From an uncultured Verrucomicrobiae bacterium (lineage in GTDB: Bacteria; Verrucomicrobiota; Verrucomicrobiia; JADLBR01; CALLMV01): DNA of 64,000 nucleotides. The position numbers and the translations under genes were made by a program. The notes under the pieces were generated by a model. The model saw only the letters and a program-made list of their open reading frames with translations, was not told the origin of the DNA and did not search any database. Position 1 is the first letter of the stretch. Each line of letters begins with the position of its first letter. Below, one piece after another: positions 7,744 to 28,657 of the stretch. The DNA is taken from positions 1 through 64,000 of the forward strand of contig CALLMV010000013.1 in NCBI GenBank assembly GCA_938005615.1. The letters are read 5' to 3'.

Positions 7744-7758
7744 TGATGATTGATAAAT
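7735..7758. promoter_or_regulatory. Perfect 8-bp inverted repeat spanning the metK start codon and putative -10
   Basis: ATTTATCA-TTGATGAT-TGATAAAT; on the - strand TTGACA (rc of 7772-7777) lies 16 nt upstream of TATCAA (rc of 7750-7755). Confidence 0.45.
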
Positions 7759-7797
7759 GTTTTTTCAGAGTTGTCAAGGCTTATGTCGGATAGGTTC

Positions 7798-8400
7798 TTA
7801 TCGGCGGATGTCCGGTACGTTTGCCGTTTCCTTGAAGAGCCAAGGGGTCTCATGCAAAGGCAGAAGAAGACCAGAGAAACTCGAGTAGACCACTCGCCAA
7901 TCTTCGCGAATGATTTCACCTGGCTTAGTCCAAGTCGCGTTGAGTGGCGCTTGCTGCGTAGTTATCCCGCCTAGACTGGCGTGGATAGCTACAGGGCCTC
8001 CAAAACGTTTTGTCGTATTCGGGGTTACATAGAAAAAGAAACGGTTTTTCCCTTTAGGAATATTGAAGAAACCAACTTCCCTTTTGGAGGCACGGAAGCG
8101 GCTTTCTTGTTTTAAGAGCACCTCGACCTGCAGGTAAACTTCATCGTTCCACTGTGGCAGAGAGTCAAAAGTTACTGTGACTCTTCCCCAAGGCAGAGCA
8201 CCCTCGATGAGAGGGAGTTCGTCGTATTTTATTTCGAGGTTAGCAAGTGTCATAGCAGGCTCTTGTTGTTGCTGCTGTGTTTGAGTTTCGGTAGGGTCAA
8301 CATCCTGGGTATACCCCGGGGATTGAGACCTCAGTAAATGGGTTGTGAAGTTAGTGAAGAAACAAGTGACTGTTAATATTTTTATTAATGGTTTTTTCAT
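7798..8400 (-). CDS. Predicted secreted protein, fifth gene of the pseudopilin cassette
   Basis: 200 aa with hydrophobic N-terminal signal; start overlaps the stop of the 886-aa cassette gene by 4 nt. Confidence 0.75.
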   Translation of the reverse strand: MKKPLIKILTVTCFFTNFTTHLLRSQSPGYTQDVDPTETQTQQQQQEPAMTLANLEIKYDELPLIEGALPWGRVTVTFDSLPQWNDEVYLQVEVLLKQESRFRASKREVGFFNIPKGKNRFFFYVTPNTTKRFGGPVAIHASLGGITTQQAPLNATWTKPGEIIREDWRVVYSSFSGLLLPLHETPWLFKETANVPDIRR

Positions 8401-11057
8401 AAAGTTTCCCTGCTGAGCTCTTCGATTTTATATCTTCTGGTTTGGTTGTCGTATTTAAGTTGAATTCTGCTTTTCATGACGACGCTGGCGGTTTCCTTGC
8501 CTGAGGGGGTGACATTAGCGCCACGTGAGTAGACCACAAAGGAGGTTGAGTTGTGAGTCAAGGCGTTTGCTGTTCCTATTACGGGTCTTTCTTTTTCTCT
8601 GTGTAAGATAGTGGGGCCGAGGATGGCATTTGAATCAAAAAATTCATAAAATTGAGAATAATTTACTAACTTTTTGTTAGTACTAGATAATTGATTCAGG
8701 AAGTAATCCACAGCAGCATCTAAGTTAGGCTGGGAACCCCAATTCTGGATGTTAGCTAATAGTGCCTTTATGGCTGCTCGATCTTTCGTATTGACGTTAA
8801 TGAGACTTTTGTAGGCTTGTGCGGAGGCAGTGCCCCAGGTGGGGTGAGTGATGCTTGCTGTGGGGGGAAAGATTCCCGCATCGAGATAGCCTAGCAAGCG
8901 CCAGTCAGCCGGGGCTTCGTTGAACATTCTTAGTGTTCGGAACGGTCTACCGGCAAAGAGCCAAGCGGTTTCTCCAGCACTTTTAAGATCGCTGCGCACA
9001 AAGAAGTGGTTTTTTGTTCCATTTGGCTGGCTCCACCAGCGCGAGTTGTTGGGGATCAGTTGGTCTCCATCCCAGGGGTTAGAGCCGTAGTAGTTTATAG
9101 TGGCATTTGGAGTGAGGGTTTCTGGCTCTGTCACATTGTGAATAGCCACGTTTTTGTGGAGGGCCCAGGCGTTTCTTTTAAAGTGAAGGCGGGGGTCTGT
9201 GACAAGGTGCAGGTGCTGGACTTCGTTGGGACGTTCGCCTATGGCATTCGGCCTTCCACCGGGGCGCATGATGATAGGTGCGCTAGAACTGGTGGAACGA
9301 TTAAATGTTGCTGGGGAATGAATGATGTCATATTCCCTAACTCTTTGGATGACGCCTTCGTAGTTTCGCCATTTACCTTTGTCTTCTTTGTAAGTGAGCG
9401 TGAGGTCTTTAATCTTGTGCCGGACGTTGTTAAAGGTCGTATCTTTGGGTTGTCTGTCGTTGGGTTCAAATCTTGTTCTTTCTAGATAGGCAGAGGAGTT
9501 GTTCCAAGGATGGGGCACTGTTTTGCCAGAATTTGGACTGATATTATTGGGGTAGGGAATGAACATTCCGAAGAACCCACCGAGGTCGTTGTTAGGCCTT
9601 GTGCCTAGGTAGTTGTAGATGTTAGTGCCTCTGTTACCATTTGTGACTGTGCCTGAGTGCTCGAATTCGAGGTTTGTAATTCTGTATGAATGAAAGAAAG
9701 AGGCATTAGTGCGGTCGCGTTCGATCCGCATGTCGCTGAAGTTGTTATTGAACAGGCTGGTGTCGTAAAACATCAGAGTCGGTTCTTCCCAGGGGTTGAT
9801 CACGCCGATGGAACAGATAAAGAGCGATGAGTTAAGAAGACCATTAATGGCAGGGTTGCTTGCGTTAGAGTAGTTCAGGATAATGCCTGTGCCGAGGTAG
9901 TTGATGTAAGGGTGACCGATGGTTTTACCATTGGCACTGAGGCGACCTTCTGTGCCAAAGAATTCGGGTTCGAGGTCATTGATGTTACTGACTGTGGGGA
10001 TCATGTCTTCGTCTAGGAAATCGACGAGGTTGGCAGCGATGATGAGAGCTTCTTGCTTGGTGTAGCCTAAGCCAGTGACAAGGAAGGTCAGGTCTCCGCC
10101 TCCCCAATTGGCGCTGTTGTCGGCGCGAGGATCGTTTGGATCTACAAGACCGTAAACGACTTTGGCGCGCAGGTTATAGAAAGGGGGTGCGGAGTTTTGG
10201 GAGGGGTCTAGTTCGTCCACGTAATCTTTAAGTTTCTTGAGGTTGAGTCGAGGCCGTCCGTTGGGAGCCAGGGGTGTCGAGGTGGGTGTCATGGAGTAGA
10301 GGTGATCGCCGGCTTTGTTGTCGCCTGCGAATTGGCCTGTTGTGGTGGCTGGGGGTGCAGGACGAATCAGGTTGAGTGTGCTGGTGGAAAGTGCGTTACT
10401 CCTATCAAAGATCGGTAGGACGACTTGGTCGTGTGTGAGCAGGGGGATTTGTCTGATATCATCCGCAGTTTCTGTTCTACTTTGCAGACCGTGTTGAAGG
10501 GCATCAAGCCGGGAGCTTGCGTCCAGTATCCAAAAGGAGTGGTGGGATTTTTGGGCGGGATCTAGTTCATTGACTAGCTGTATGATTCCTGCTTTGCGGT
10601 TGAAGTCACGATTGTCTAGAGGAATGAGTGCGGTGCCATGCGGGCTGGTAACCGGAGTTCTGAGTTCTGTCGTTTTTGTGATTTGGGGTAAGTTGGGTGA
10701 GTTGGCGTTGAGGGCCTCAAGTTCGAGAAAGGAAAAGTGGTTATCGACGTCGTTCTTATTGTAGCCTTGAGTAGCAAAGCTGGGGGAAACGACTTCAGCG
10801 AGAGCAAAGTGTCCCGGTACGGACAGGCTGTTGAAGAGCTCAAGCAGTTTGAGTTTGGCGGCTTCTACGCCATCGTTGGCAGCATTTCTTGCTTGAATGT
10901 GGTTAGAGATGTTGTGAGCAGAAGCACGGTCGAGCCTACTGGTAAGCAGCGCAGCGGAGGTCAGGATGGCGAGTGCGACAAGTATGATAAGTGCCGTGGG
11001 GATGGCGAAGGCTTTGCGCTTTTTCTGCTGTCGGATTGAGATGAGCTTTTTGTGCAT
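8397..11057 (-). CDS. Verru_Chthon cassette protein A-like; GspK-like large pseudopilin
   Basis: 886 aa; N-terminal KRKAFAIPTALIILVALAILTSAALLTSRLDRASAHN prepilin-like helix, very large C-terminal domain. Confidence 0.85.
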   Translation of the reverse strand: MHKKLISIRQQKKRKAFAIPTALIILVALAILTSAALLTSRLDRASAHNISNHIQARNAANDGVEAAKLKLLELFNSLSVPGHFALAEVVSPSFATQGYNKNDVDNHFSFLELEALNANSPNLPQITKTTELRTPVTSPHGTALIPLDNRDFNRKAGIIQLVNELDPAQKSHHSFWILDASSRLDALQHGLQSRTETADDIRQIPLLTHDQVVLPIFDRSNALSTSTLNLIRPAPPATTTGQFAGDNKAGDHLYSMTPTSTPLAPNGRPRLNLKKLKDYVDELDPSQNSAPPFYNLRAKVVYGLVDPNDPRADNSANWGGGDLTFLVTGLGYTKQEALIIAANLVDFLDEDMIPTVSNINDLEPEFFGTEGRLSANGKTIGHPYINYLGTGIILNYSNASNPAINGLLNSSLFICSIGVINPWEEPTLMFYDTSLFNNNFSDMRIERDRTNASFFHSYRITNLEFEHSGTVTNGNRGTNIYNYLGTRPNNDLGGFFGMFIPYPNNISPNSGKTVPHPWNNSSAYLERTRFEPNDRQPKDTTFNNVRHKIKDLTLTYKEDKGKWRNYEGVIQRVREYDIIHSPATFNRSTSSSAPIIMRPGGRPNAIGERPNEVQHLHLVTDPRLHFKRNAWALHKNVAIHNVTEPETLTPNATINYYGSNPWDGDQLIPNNSRWWSQPNGTKNHFFVRSDLKSAGETAWLFAGRPFRTLRMFNEAPADWRLLGYLDAGIFPPTASITHPTWGTASAQAYKSLINVNTKDRAAIKALLANIQNWGSQPNLDAAVDYFLNQLSSTNKKLVNYSQFYEFFDSNAILGPTILHREKERPVIGTANALTHNSTSFVVYSRGANVTPSGKETASVVMKSRIQLKYDNQTRRYKIEELSRETL

Positions 11058-11069
11058 GGGGCTACTTCT

Positions 11070-11951
11070 TTATGGTTTGACGACAGATCCGGTGAAAATC
11101 CTGGTGCGATATTCTCGCATCTTGGGGAGCAGGACATACTGAAAGTTTGGCGATGCTGTGTTAAAATAGTCAGCTTTAGGTATTGATCGGGAGATGATTC
11201 TTTCTACATCCGAACCACCTATCGTTTTGAATGACACATCTATGTAGAGGGGCTTGGAGTCCGGGTTGCTGAGCGTCAGATTGGTATTCCCGCTTTGCCT
11301 GACACCTCCGGCACCGTCGTTGTAAGTTACATTGAACTTCAGATCCCAAAGACAGGGCACAAAAATGGAGTCTGTTTGTGGAGGGCCCTGTTTGATTCCA
11401 GCTGGAGTAGTAAAGATCGCTGGTGTGGAGCCGATGATGTGAAAGGCGGGGAGCGGAGTATTGGGAGGAGGAGGAACGACTGGCGCTGCGGGCATTCTGG
11501 TGTAGAAGCTTGCCGAGTCTAAAAAGGTCCGGCGAAGTGTGAAAACACCGTTCGAAAACTCGCAGTAATAGCCGACGCCGCAAACATCGCCGTTGCCAGC
11601 AGTGCCCATGCGATATGTAGTGGCGAAATAGATTTCTTGGTTGGGGGAGCCAGGGTCGCGGAAGTTTTGTCGAACGAGATAAGTGGCCCCCGGCCGGAGT
11701 GTGTGGAGGTTGGAGAGTTCGCGTGTAATTCTGTGGAGTGCGGCACGGGCGTCGCGCACTGCAGCGTAGCGGTTATCTGCAGAGCGAAGTAGTTGGGTGG
11801 AGTTGGCAAAGATTTGTGAGAGGAACAATGCCATGATGATGAAGATGGACGCTCCCACGAGCAGCTCCACCAAGGTGAAAGCATTCTGTTTCGGCAGGGG
11901 AAACGAGTTTACCCCACTTTGAGTGTGTGGGCTGTTTCTGAGCGGCGTCAT
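11070..11951 (-). CDS. Verru_Chthon cassette protein C-like; GspJ-like pseudopilin
   Basis: NAFTLVELLVGASIFIIMALFLSQIF type III signal; RAALHRITRELSNL. Confidence 0.85.
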   Translation of the reverse strand: MTPLRNSPHTQSGVNSFPLPKQNAFTLVELLVGASIFIIMALFLSQIFANSTQLLRSADNRYAAVRDARAALHRITRELSNLHTLRPGATYLVRQNFRDPGSPNQEIYFATTYRMGTAGNGDVCGVGYYCEFSNGVFTLRRTFLDSASFYTRMPAAPVVPPPPNTPLPAFHIIGSTPAIFTTPAGIKQGPPQTDSIFVPCLWDLKFNVTYNDGAGGVRQSGNTNLTLSNPDSKPLYIDVSFKTIGGSDVERIISRSIPKADYFNTASPNFQYVLLPKMREYRTRIFTGSVVKP

Positions 11952-12466
11952 GATTTGGTAATCGCCTTGGCGATAAGCCCTGTGAATGAGGCTTTATTGA
12001 GGTTAGGTGTACTGTCTGGCAGAACAGCCGCTGGAGGCGTCCAGTAGATGATCATGGAAAGCTGGTTTACTAATGTGGGTGAGGCCGGCGGCTTGGGATA
12101 GGCAGGTGGAGAAGGGTTAAATTTAAGTCTAATGAGAAAAGTCGTCTTGCCGGGTATGGGAGTTAACGAAATGTTCAGCTCATTATCAGCGTAGAGGAGT
12201 TTTTCGTCGCTTTCGGTGTTGAGGTTAATCTTCATGCCGTAGAGGTCGGCGTCGTCAAAATAATCAGCACGCAAACTGGCAAAAATGCTTTGTGCAAGAA
12301 GGCCCGCTTTTGTTTCGTTGTCGGTGTCGAGCAGAGAACGTTGTATGATCGGAAACACTCCCAAAATAGAAACCAGGATGATGGTAGACAAGCCGAGCGC
12401 GATCATGATTTCAACAAGGTTGAATGCTTTCTGACCGGTGCTGAGTATTTGTTTGGTTTGCTTCAT
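11948..12466 (-). CDS. Verru_Chthon cassette protein B-like; GspI-like pseudopilin
   Basis: QKAFNLVEIMIALGLSTIILVSILGVFP; stop overlaps the start of the next gene by 4 nt. Confidence 0.83.
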   Translation of the reverse strand: MKQTKQILSTGQKAFNLVEIMIALGLSTIILVSILGVFPIIQRSLLDTDNETKAGLLAQSIFASLRADYFDDADLYGMKINLNTESDEKLLYADNELNISLTPIPGKTTFLIRLKFNPSPPAYPKPPASPTLVNQLSMIIYWTPPAAVLPDSTPNLNKASFTGLIAKAITKS

Positions 12467-12482
12467 CAGGACAATGTGCGCT

Positions 12483-13142
12483 TCAGTTGGGTCTGTCGAT
12501 CACATCAAATGTGCTCTTGGTGAGATACACGACTGTACCGGTATAGGGGTTGATTCGCAGTGTCTCGGATGGAGGTGATGAGACACTGGAATTCAGCCGT
12601 TCGCGGATGGTGATGTCGGTCTCTGCATTGGGGCTGCGAAGACCTCCCATTTCGTCAAATTCAATGTAGTGAACAGCCGTGCTGGTATTTGGTCGTTTGG
12701 GCAGGTTGTTATGGGTGTCTGTGGGAAGTAGTAGTAGGGCATCACTACTAAAAATGATACCACCGGGAAATCTGCTCCAGGCTGTGAGGGGTTTCCATGT
12801 GTTGTCTTGGGGGTCACGAGCAATGATCGCGAAGATGCCTTGGTGAAAGTTGCTTGGATTAGTCTCGAATTCGCCAGTCAAATTCTCGTGGGCAAAGACG
12901 ATTCGTACGTTCCCGTCATTGGTGATAGCATGTGTTTGTGCTAGGCGAATTGCACTAATCAGGTTTGAGACTGCACCCTTGCGACCCTGAGCTTGAGAAA
13001 GGTTTTTGACTCCGTTGACTCCAGCCACCAAGAGGAGCATAGCTAAAGAGATAACTACAAGCATCTCCACCAGAGTAAATGCATTGAGCCTAGCAGAAAG
13101 CTGATTGGAGGAAGCGTTCATTTGTTTGCGTTGTAATGACAT
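12483..13142 (-). CDS. Verru_Chthon cassette protein D-like; GspH-like pseudopilin
   Basis: NAFTLVEMLVVISLAMLLLVAGVNGVKNL, SNLISAIRLAQTHAITNDGNVRIVF; ORF opens at 13196 but the Met at 13142 or 13121 fits a prepilin leader better. Confidence 0.83.
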   Translation of the reverse strand: MSLQRKQMNASSNQLSARLNAFTLVEMLVVISLAMLLLVAGVNGVKNLSQAQGRKGAVSNLISAIRLAQTHAITNDGNVRIVFAHENLTGEFETNPSNFHQGIFAIIARDPQDNTWKPLTAWSRFPGGIIFSSDALLLLPTDTHNNLPKRPNTSTAVHYIEFDEMGGLRSPNAETDITIRERLNSSVSSPPSETLRINPYTGTVVYLTKSTFDVIDRPN

Positions 13143-27721: not shown

Positions 27722-28657
27722 ATGGCTGCTGAGTTGTTGATGCCTTTGCTCATCGCGGGCACGCTGAGCTTATCTCTGGTTTTGTTTCTGATGGCATTGG
27801 AAATGGCCGGCCGGCCAGAACTCTCCGTTAGTGAACGCATCCGTCGCGTGCAGTCCGGCGGGGTGATCCTGAAGGAAGAGGTGCGCACCAAATCACTCTT
27901 TGAAAGGGTGCTCATCCCTCTGAGTGAGAAAATCGGCAAGCTGCTTGGCTCATTCACTCCTGGCAGTCTGACGGAACAGGCATCACGGCTAATTGCGCAG
28001 GCAGGTCTGACTTATTACCTCACAGGAATGCAAATGGCGGGCTTTTGTTGGTTGCTTGCCGCAGCACTGCCCACCGTGCTGCTGGTGCTTTATGGCACGA
28101 CTCCGATGGATCCGTTGATGAGATTTCTCATGCTGGGAATTGCGTTTATGCTGGGGTTCCGTTTACCGATGATGCTGGTGGCCATGCGTGCAAAAAAGCG
28201 GCAGGAAGAAATCCTCAAGGCCCTACCGTTTTCTTTTGATCTTTTGGGTATCTCAGTGGAAGCAGGGATGGGATTTGATGGTGCCATGTCGGCTGTGGCA
28301 GAACGCACGGGTGGTCCCTTTGCACAGGAGCTGATGCGCACGCTGACAGAGATCCGTTTAGGCAAACCACGCAACCAAGCTCTGACAGATCTGGGTGAAC
28401 GCGTGGGGCTGGATGATTTGAAGTCGTTTACTGGTGCGGTGACGTTTGTAAACAACTTGGGCGGGTCTTTAAACGATGTGCTGAAAGTCCAAGCAGAGTC
28501 GATGCGTGTAAAACGTCGTCAGCGCGCGGAGGAAAAAGCAATGAAAGCCCCCGTAAAAATGATGATCCCGTTGGTTTTTTTTATTTTTCCCTGCATGTTT
28601 GTAGTAATTCTTGGACCTGCAGGCATTATGATCTACAATGACTTCATAATGAAATAA
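27722..28657 (+). CDS. Type II secretion system F/TadC-like membrane protein
   Basis: LPFSFDLLGISVEAGMGFDGAMSAVAERTGGPFAQEL, VKMMIPLVFFIFPCMFVVILGPAGI. Confidence 0.9.
   Translation: MAAELLMPLLIAGTLSLSLVLFLMALEMAGRPELSVSERIRRVQSGGVILKEEVRTKSLFERVLIPLSEKIGKLLGSFTPGSLTEQASRLIAQAGLTYYLTGMQMAGFCWLLAAALPTVLLVLYGTTPMDPLMRFLMLGIAFMLGFRLPMMLVAMRAKKRQEEILKALPFSFDLLGISVEAGMGFDGAMSAVAERTGGPFAQELMRTLTEIRLGKPRNQALTDLGERVGLDDLKSFTGAVTFVNNLGGSLNDVLKVQAESMRVKRRQRAEEKAMKAPVKMMIPLVFFIFPCMFVVILGPAGIMIYNDFIMK

Follow-up and report, generated by a model that had tools for sequence, protein, structure and literature searches.

A divergent Verru_Chthon-type cassette with a giant GspK-type subunit as a probable minor-pilin priming and tip complex in an uncultured Verrucomicrobiae bacterium

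A five-gene operon of prepilin-like proteins

The window analyzed here is a 64,000-nucleotide (nt) stretch of a contig from an uncultured Verrucomicrobiae bacterium (GenBank assembly GCA_938005615.1, contig CALLMV010000013.1), and the element under study is a minus-strand operon at positions 7798-13142 that encodes four prepilin-like proteins (D, B, C and A) and a predicted secreted protein (E). Profile comparisons place the four prepilin-like proteins in a divergent sub-type of the Verru_Chthon cassette and link the largest of them, A, to the type II secretion system (T2SS) minor pseudopilin GspK, and we propose that the operon probably encodes a priming and tip complex of the GspH-I-J-K type. 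Labels beginning with L, G and C followed by a number denote loci, genomes and contigs, with G000 being the genome of the window.

Structurally, the five genes described in the initial annotation, of about 220, 172, 293, 886 and 200 amino acids (aa), were all recovered as open reading frames (ORFs) in the order D-B-C-A-E (Table 1), with spacings of +16, −4, +12 and −4 nt between successive genes. The four prepilin-like N-termini that had been read there also stood: D, B and C carry canonical type III prepilin N-termini (A^F[TN]LVE) and are recognized as pilins by hidden Markov models (HMMs), and the A protein of the window (winA) begins with MHKKLISIRQQKKRKA^FAIPTALIILVALAILTSAALL, which is prepilin-like and has no glutamate at position +5. 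Such a prepilin N-terminus without Glu5 (KKRKA^FAIPTALII) is a trait that A shares with GspK, and the missing Glu5 is the usual look of GspK and PilX-type subunits.

Remote assignment of D, B and C to the Verru_Chthon families

The Verru_Chthon cassette is defined by four families, TIGR02600 (A), TIGR02598 (B), TIGR02599 (C) and TIGR02596 (D), with membership taken as a score above the curated NCBIfam cut-off. By this rule none of the four window proteins qualifies: D scored 35.1 bits against a cut-off of 70, B 19.5 against 51.4, and C 38.1 against 256.5 (over the C N-terminus only), and A gave no match to TIGR02600 in the NCBIfam search. The HMM search with the four models that the initial annotation had suggested as a check hence brought no window protein to its cut-off. 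The four cassette genes are contiguous, as in the defined cassette.

Profile-profile comparison (hhalign, with at most 45 sequences per cassette family) gave a more specific picture. Since these E-values are one-against-one, the test lies in the contrast with the off-diagonal comparisons, which were ~2e-6 or worse. Window D matched the cassette D family at E 1.4e-16, and still at 7.7e-8 without its first 30 mature residues, with the other families at 0.03 or above; window B matched the B family at 1.7e-10, compared with 2e-5 or worse for the C and D families; and window C matched the C family at 9.2e-12 over 226 columns. At this remote level, D, B and C are each specifically assigned to the matching cassette family. 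What remains of the earlier statement that the operon matches the Verru_Chthon cassette is thus a distant, family-specific match of each of these subunits, and the part that relied on the TIGRFAM definitions falls away.

The giant A protein belongs to a divergent subfamily

Used as a single-sequence query, winA brought up no relatives, either among 57 related genomes or in a contig collection, and its relatives surfaced only through weak TIGR02600 matches combined with gene order. Searched class-wide, TIGR02600 gave many proteins below its cut-off, a good number of which measure 800-1300 aa, and from 20 fetched loci of this kind we delineated a divergent A subfamily (divA), with an HMM built on 22 members. 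This HMM gave winA 80.3 bits (E 7e-24) in an alignment from residue 9 to 866. With only residues 81-886 the score was 53.8 bits, and none of 1000 shuffles exceeded 7.5. Several independent divA proteins matched winA at the same places, namely the N-terminus, IAANLVDFLDED near residue 340 and a segment near residues 660-722, and three divA members (L083A, L084A and L085A) were also matched by the canonical A profile. From these matches, winA is placed within the divA subfamily. Two other recognizers were tried and dropped: an HMM of 62 canonical A proteins gave winA 8.8 bits, hardly above background, and a block-chain test of winA with GspK and canonical-A blocks was weak or negative (z 2.3, −0.3 and 3.2) and was replaced by the divA profile.

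Gene order sets the divergent loci apart as well. Where the pilins could be typed, the arrangement D-B-C-A was found in the window and at L082, L083, L084, L238, L240, L241, L246, L248, L249, L251, L253 and L254; the divA locus L085 does not read D-B-C-A, and several others are cut or partly typed. Among 80 canonical loci, an automatic reading, in which the script took a neighboring large ORF as A in a few loci, returned B-C-D-A in 17, B-C-A-D in 15, A-B-C-D in 15 and D-B-C-A in five, with the rest mostly incomplete. More than 20 of the 188 class genomes, from more than 10 families, hold a protein that matches a winA-headed alignment over nearly the full length. We take these near full-length matches alone as evidence, since the wider tally of 135 of the 188 genomes with an A-profile match also counts short hits at the N-terminus, some of which may come from ordinary GspK. 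Glu5 is absent in A proteins throughout. At L237, L240 and L241, two or three additional D-like (GspH-like) prepilins stand in a row upstream of D-B-C-A.

With the pilin HMMs, the specific cassette-family matches of D, B and C and the divA match of A, the observation of a pilin operon is above chance, and by its sequence relationships the window cassette is a divergent sub-type, usually ordered D-B-C-A, and not the form defined by TIGRFAM.

Profile-level homology of A to GspK and the H-I-J-K mapping

A profile built from 28 GspK sequences (E. coli and Verrucomicrobiia) aligned with the A families over the N-terminal 65-80 columns at E 2-3e-10 (divA and pooled) and 2e-9 (canonical), compared with 1e-3 or worse for the G, H, I and J profiles against divA. 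With the N-termini removed, GspK matched divA at E 3.2e-10 over 143 columns, with a second block at 2.2e-5; among the controls, reversed divA gave 0.76, and the G, H, I and J profiles 0.3 or above. Applied directly to winA, a thin three-sequence GspK profile reached E 0.05 only, and the NCBIfam GspK model NF037980 scored 14 of 130 bits, N-terminally and below its cut-off. At the profile level, A is a GspK homologue by way of the divA subfamily: because divA is homologous to GspK and winA lies in divA, winA is linked to GspK outside the N-terminal helix. The shared elements follow in winA, in order, as WILDASSRLD, IAANLVDFLDED, GRPFRTL, INVNT and LTHNSTSFVVYSRG (Table 1), and with 886 aa against 327 aa in E. 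coli the earlier description of A as a greatly enlarged GspK holds.

Among the other subunits, cassette D lay closest to GspH (E 1.3e-13; 4.7e-4 without the N-terminus) and cassette C closest to GspJ (2.7e-13), with J also the best T2SS partner of window C (1.6e-7). The mapping of D, B, C and A onto H, I, J and K made in the initial annotation is on this basis largely supported, with D, C and A placed by profile comparison with controls, and the B subunit is taken up below.

Table 1 Genes of the operon and motifs of its A protein, in window coordinates
Feature	Positions	Strand	Evidence or remark
D: GspH/FimT-like minor pilin, 219 aa	12483..13142	-	motif LNA^FTLVEML; TIGR02596 35 bits; Pfam GspH E 0.0016
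D: alternative start at an upstream ATG	13196	-	would give 237 aa
B: GspI/PilV-like minor pilin, 172 aa	11948..12466	-	motif QKA^FNLVEIM; cassette B family match; I and J not separable
C: GspJ/PilW-like minor pilin, 293 aa	11070..11951	-	motif QNA^FTLVELL; N_methyl above cut-off; cassette C family match
A: giant GspK-type minor pilin, 886 aa	8397..11057	-	divA HMM match; divA homologous to GspK
E: predicted secreted protein, 200 aa	7798..8400	-	start overlaps the A stop by 4 nt
A, residues 17-76: mature N-terminal helix without Glu5 (A^FAIPTALIILVALAILTSAALL)	10830..11009	-	GspK profile against winA E 8e-4; helix in AlphaFold2 model
A, motif WILDASSRLD, matching W-x-D-D-E-S-x-K-[IVL]-N of the A family	10503..10532	-	alignments A3 and A4; HMM alignment
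A, motif around IAANLVDFLDEDMIPT, matching GspK I-x-D-W-I-D-x-D	9987..10046	-	local matches to several independent divA proteins; position given by GspK profile
A, segment LKSAGETAWLFAGRPFRTLRMFNEAPADWRLL, matching divA SxGELGxxxxxxWRTL...PDWALLDLF and GspK NxPFxxxxELLxV	8886..8990	-	divA matches; HMM alignment
A, motif INVNTKDRAAIKAL, matching GspK INvNTA..vL.AL	8760..8801	-	N754 and N756 invariant in alignment A4
A, motif LTHNSTSFVVYSRG, matching LTTxSxxFxVxxxG (C-terminal strand)	8520..8561	-	HMM alignment

Structure prediction gave a good model for a canonical relative: the AlphaFold2 model of the 1074-aa A protein of L195, made with 62 sequences, reached a mean predicted local distance difference test score (pLDDT) of 87.7 and shows a 62-residue N-terminal helix, strands near residues 174-218 and 999-1072, and a large insert between them. 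A Foldseek search of this model against 350,542 PDB chains returned nothing significant, with the GspK chains 3ci0_K at rank 6 (E 0.54, TM-score 0.17) and 5vtm_X at rank 42 (E 2.2); the ranks of these two chains lend weak support to the relation between A and GspK.

The E gene and the neighborhood of the operon

The window's E protein (winE) starts with a hydrophobic, signal-peptide-like stretch and had no match in the family searches. In five other divergent-A loci (L084 and L251-L254), A is followed by an ORF whose start is signal-like or hydrophobic, and winE could not be aligned with the ORFs in this slot. Downstream of E on the same strand lie metK and ahcY, and upstream of the operon is a divergent glycosyltransferase gene. 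The gap between E and metK is only 54 nt (window positions 7744-7797), so that metK and ahcY may share a transcript with the cassette. A scan for promoters and terminators gave counts no higher than background.

Filament machinery and further cassettes in the genome of the window

Outside the window, the assembly encodes three PilB/GspE-like ATPases, two PilT proteins (over cut-off), two full GspF/PilC-like platforms, a tandem pair of secretins that score best with the Amuc_1098 family (at less than its 750-bit cut-off), a PilM with Amuc_1101 as best family (also below cut-off), two GspG-like prepilins and further prepilins. The retraction ATPase and the secretin are traits of a type IV pilus (T4P), and the machine recovered here is accordingly type-IV-pilus-like. 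Neither a canonical GspK, even at E<=1, nor a T2SS operon turned up in this 75.7% complete assembly, with the T2SS components C, L and M lying outside the search. The T2SS partner that the initial annotation had envisaged finds no support in this form: the genome shows PilT and a T4P cluster of Amuc_1098/1101 type together with the PilB-like and GspF-like proteins. The assembly ATPase and platform that it took such a cassette to depend on are both present.

The tandem secretins form a cluster with the Amuc_1101-family PilM (L027, 7672-12633, contig C11), and tandem pairs also occur in other class genomes. Tandem PilB/GspE-like ATPase genes stand beside a GspF/PilC gene on contig C17 (L016, 8707-12078). 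Within the window itself, positions 27722-28657 encode a short GspF-like protein that matches the T2SSF domain once and stands away from any pilus cluster, and a similar one lies on contig C14.

Two further cassettes, with A proteins over the TIGR02600 cut-off, are located elsewhere in the same genome. One, on contig C7, is ordered B-C-D-A and has an apparently broken C reading frame: two overlapping frames, of 201 and 203 aa, together cover the C gene (L006, 5709-6780), which points to a frameshift or an assembly error in an otherwise complete cassette. The other, B-C-A-D, is split between contigs C32 and C46; because the end of L008 on C32 and the start of L007 on C46 overlap by exactly 141 bp inside the A gene, these contigs very probably adjoin and hold one cassette.

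Beyond this genome, five large neighbors of canonical cassettes, hand-picked for size, comprised three proteins with beta-strand repeats and one with a LacZ-like region. At L204, L207 and L224, giant beta-strand-repeat proteins (TIGR02601) adjoin the canonical cassette, one of them with a PEP-CTERM signal, and are possible cargo or ligands. At L096 (8055-10755, genome G165), a D-B-C set has no A alongside, and window D finds its best single match (E 4e-10) in the D of this set; sampled members of its genus, probably Akkermansia, are mostly without canonical GspK.

Proposed function and competing explanations

Functionally, we posit that the operon probably encodes an H-I-J-K-type minor-(pseudo)pilin priming and tip complex. 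The prepilin peptidase of the cell would process D (as H), B (as I), C (as J) and A (as K), and at the inner-membrane platform these four would start a filament and then stay at its tip, with A as the apical GspK-type subunit whose insert has grown to several hundred residues. The enlarged region of A would form a surface contacting substrate or ligand, and E, a candidate partner of the cassette by its gene coupling, would be a co-translated secreted companion. The complex may work with the type-IV-pilus-like machine of this genome, which is probably shared with the two further cassettes: the T4P is favored as the machine because of the genome content, and an origin from GspK is favored because of the sequence homology of A. 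Tips may be exchangeable and may select cargo, and Myxococcus offers a precedent for several tip sets on one machine.

Several results weigh against this proposal. The Pfam GspK model (T2SSK_1st) gave no match to winA; the AlphaFold2 model of winA, built from a mixed alignment, has a pLDDT of 31, with only the N-terminal helix at any confidence; and cassette B scored alike with GspI (E 2.7e-11) and GspJ (1.1e-11), so that I and J are not separable for this subunit. The machinery inventory is also partial, with an assembly of 1.67 Mb in 51 contigs and the prepilin peptidase lying outside it.

A narrower form of the same proposal, to which we give nearly even weight, is a T4P tip for surface contact, functionally equivalent to FimU-PilV-PilW-PilX, in which the enlarged A takes the place of a PilY1-like adhesin and serves adhesion, twitching or uptake and not secretion. 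The two PilT, the Amuc_1098/1101-type cluster with its two tandem secretins and the lack of a detected canonical GspK in the genome of the window agree with it, as do the FimU-V-W-X clusters of Myxococcus and the occurrence of A-profile matches (E<=1e-8) in 132 of 168 class genomes with PilT compared with 3 of 20 without. This association is confounded by phylogeny, however, since the PilT-less genomes mostly come from one family and so do not provide an independent test, and some of the matches counted may be N-terminal and reflect ordinary GspK; the genome of the window is incomplete as well. Moreover, the homology of A past its N-terminus is to the inserted region of GspK, and PilX is not known to have such a region; Pfam PilX_N gave weak matches only, to two other A proteins.

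That GspK-specific homology would suit a dedicated T2SS tip, the reading of the initial annotation, in which each cassette caps a shared pseudopilus and picks its own cargo, with E as cargo or adaptor. In a 93-genome sample, six of the eight genomes with a D over its cut-off also carry canonical GspK, several of them within a T2SS operon (loci such as L112 and L113 show a separate canonical T2SS-type operon), one genome (G151) has at least 16 D genes over cut-off, and some canonical cassettes adjoin the giant beta-strand-repeat or LacZ-like proteins described above. However, genomes with a full T2SS already own H-I-J-K, the genome of the window yielded no T2SS operon, winE is unlike the same-slot proteins elsewhere, and the neighbors that might be cargo are five proteins picked by size, and we regard this explanation as rather unlikely. 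More improbable still is that A is mainly an anchored envelope protein with a pilin-like membrane segment, and D, B and C the leftovers of a pilus operon. The size and divergence of A and the lack of a confident winA model would fit, but the D-B-C-A linkage is kept over many families, the ORFs are intact with coupled starts, and GspK-like blocks are spread over A.

Taken more broadly, the proposed tip complex could be one instance of modular tips in Verrucomicrobiota, in which one or a few shared machines are served by many interchangeable H-I-J-K cassettes and a giant GspK-type subunit decides what is bound or exported; the window set would then be a conserved sub-type, and the cut-off-passing cassettes lineage expansions. 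We advance this generalization tentatively, as a possibility that we hold more doubtful than the complex itself. The names of the four Verru_Chthon families carry no function, and no papers on the cassette were found in the literature searched for its name; tying them to GspH-I-J-K proposes a concrete function, open to testing, for gene sets present in more than 12 copies in some genomes, and points to giant GspK-type proteins as putative tip subunits. If different cassettes share one machine, these bacteria would offer a natural test of whether tip subunits set what a type IV filament binds or secretes.

Comparison with known systems

Like the defined Verru_Chthon cassette, the window operon links a gene for a very large protein to three genes whose products carry canonical prepilin N-termini. 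It differs in the size of A (886 aa, compared with about 1080-1450 aa in canonical A) and in its order, D-B-C-A being rare in the canonical loci and usual in the divergent sub-type. With the T2SS subunits GspH-I-J-K (XcpU-V-W-X; 3ci0, 5vtm) it shares the order, the roles indicated by the profiles, a last subunit without Glu5 and the GspK-like blocks in A. In contrast, window A is ~2.7 times the length of E. coli GspK and is missed by T2SSK_1st, B may correspond to I or to J, and the genome showed no T2SS operon. XcpX, the Pseudomonas homologue of GspK, is regarded as controlling how long the pseudopilus becomes (PMC6211770).

The Akkermansia-type Amuc_1098-1101 T4P cluster has counterparts in the two Amuc_1098-family secretins and the Amuc_1101-family PilM of the window's genome, both at sub-cut-off scores; these lie on a different contig from the window cassette. 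In Myxococcus xanthus, three clusters each encode four minor pilins and a PilY1, all of them proposed to serve a single machine, and PilX is without Glu5 (PMC7541494). The likeness of these FimU-PilV-PilW-PilX-PilY1 clusters to the cassettes lies in several four-minor-pilin sets per machine, a fourth subunit without Glu5 and a large partner at the tip. In M. xanthus, however, that large partner is the separate PilY1, whereas in the window cassette the bulk would reside inside the K/X-type pilin itself.

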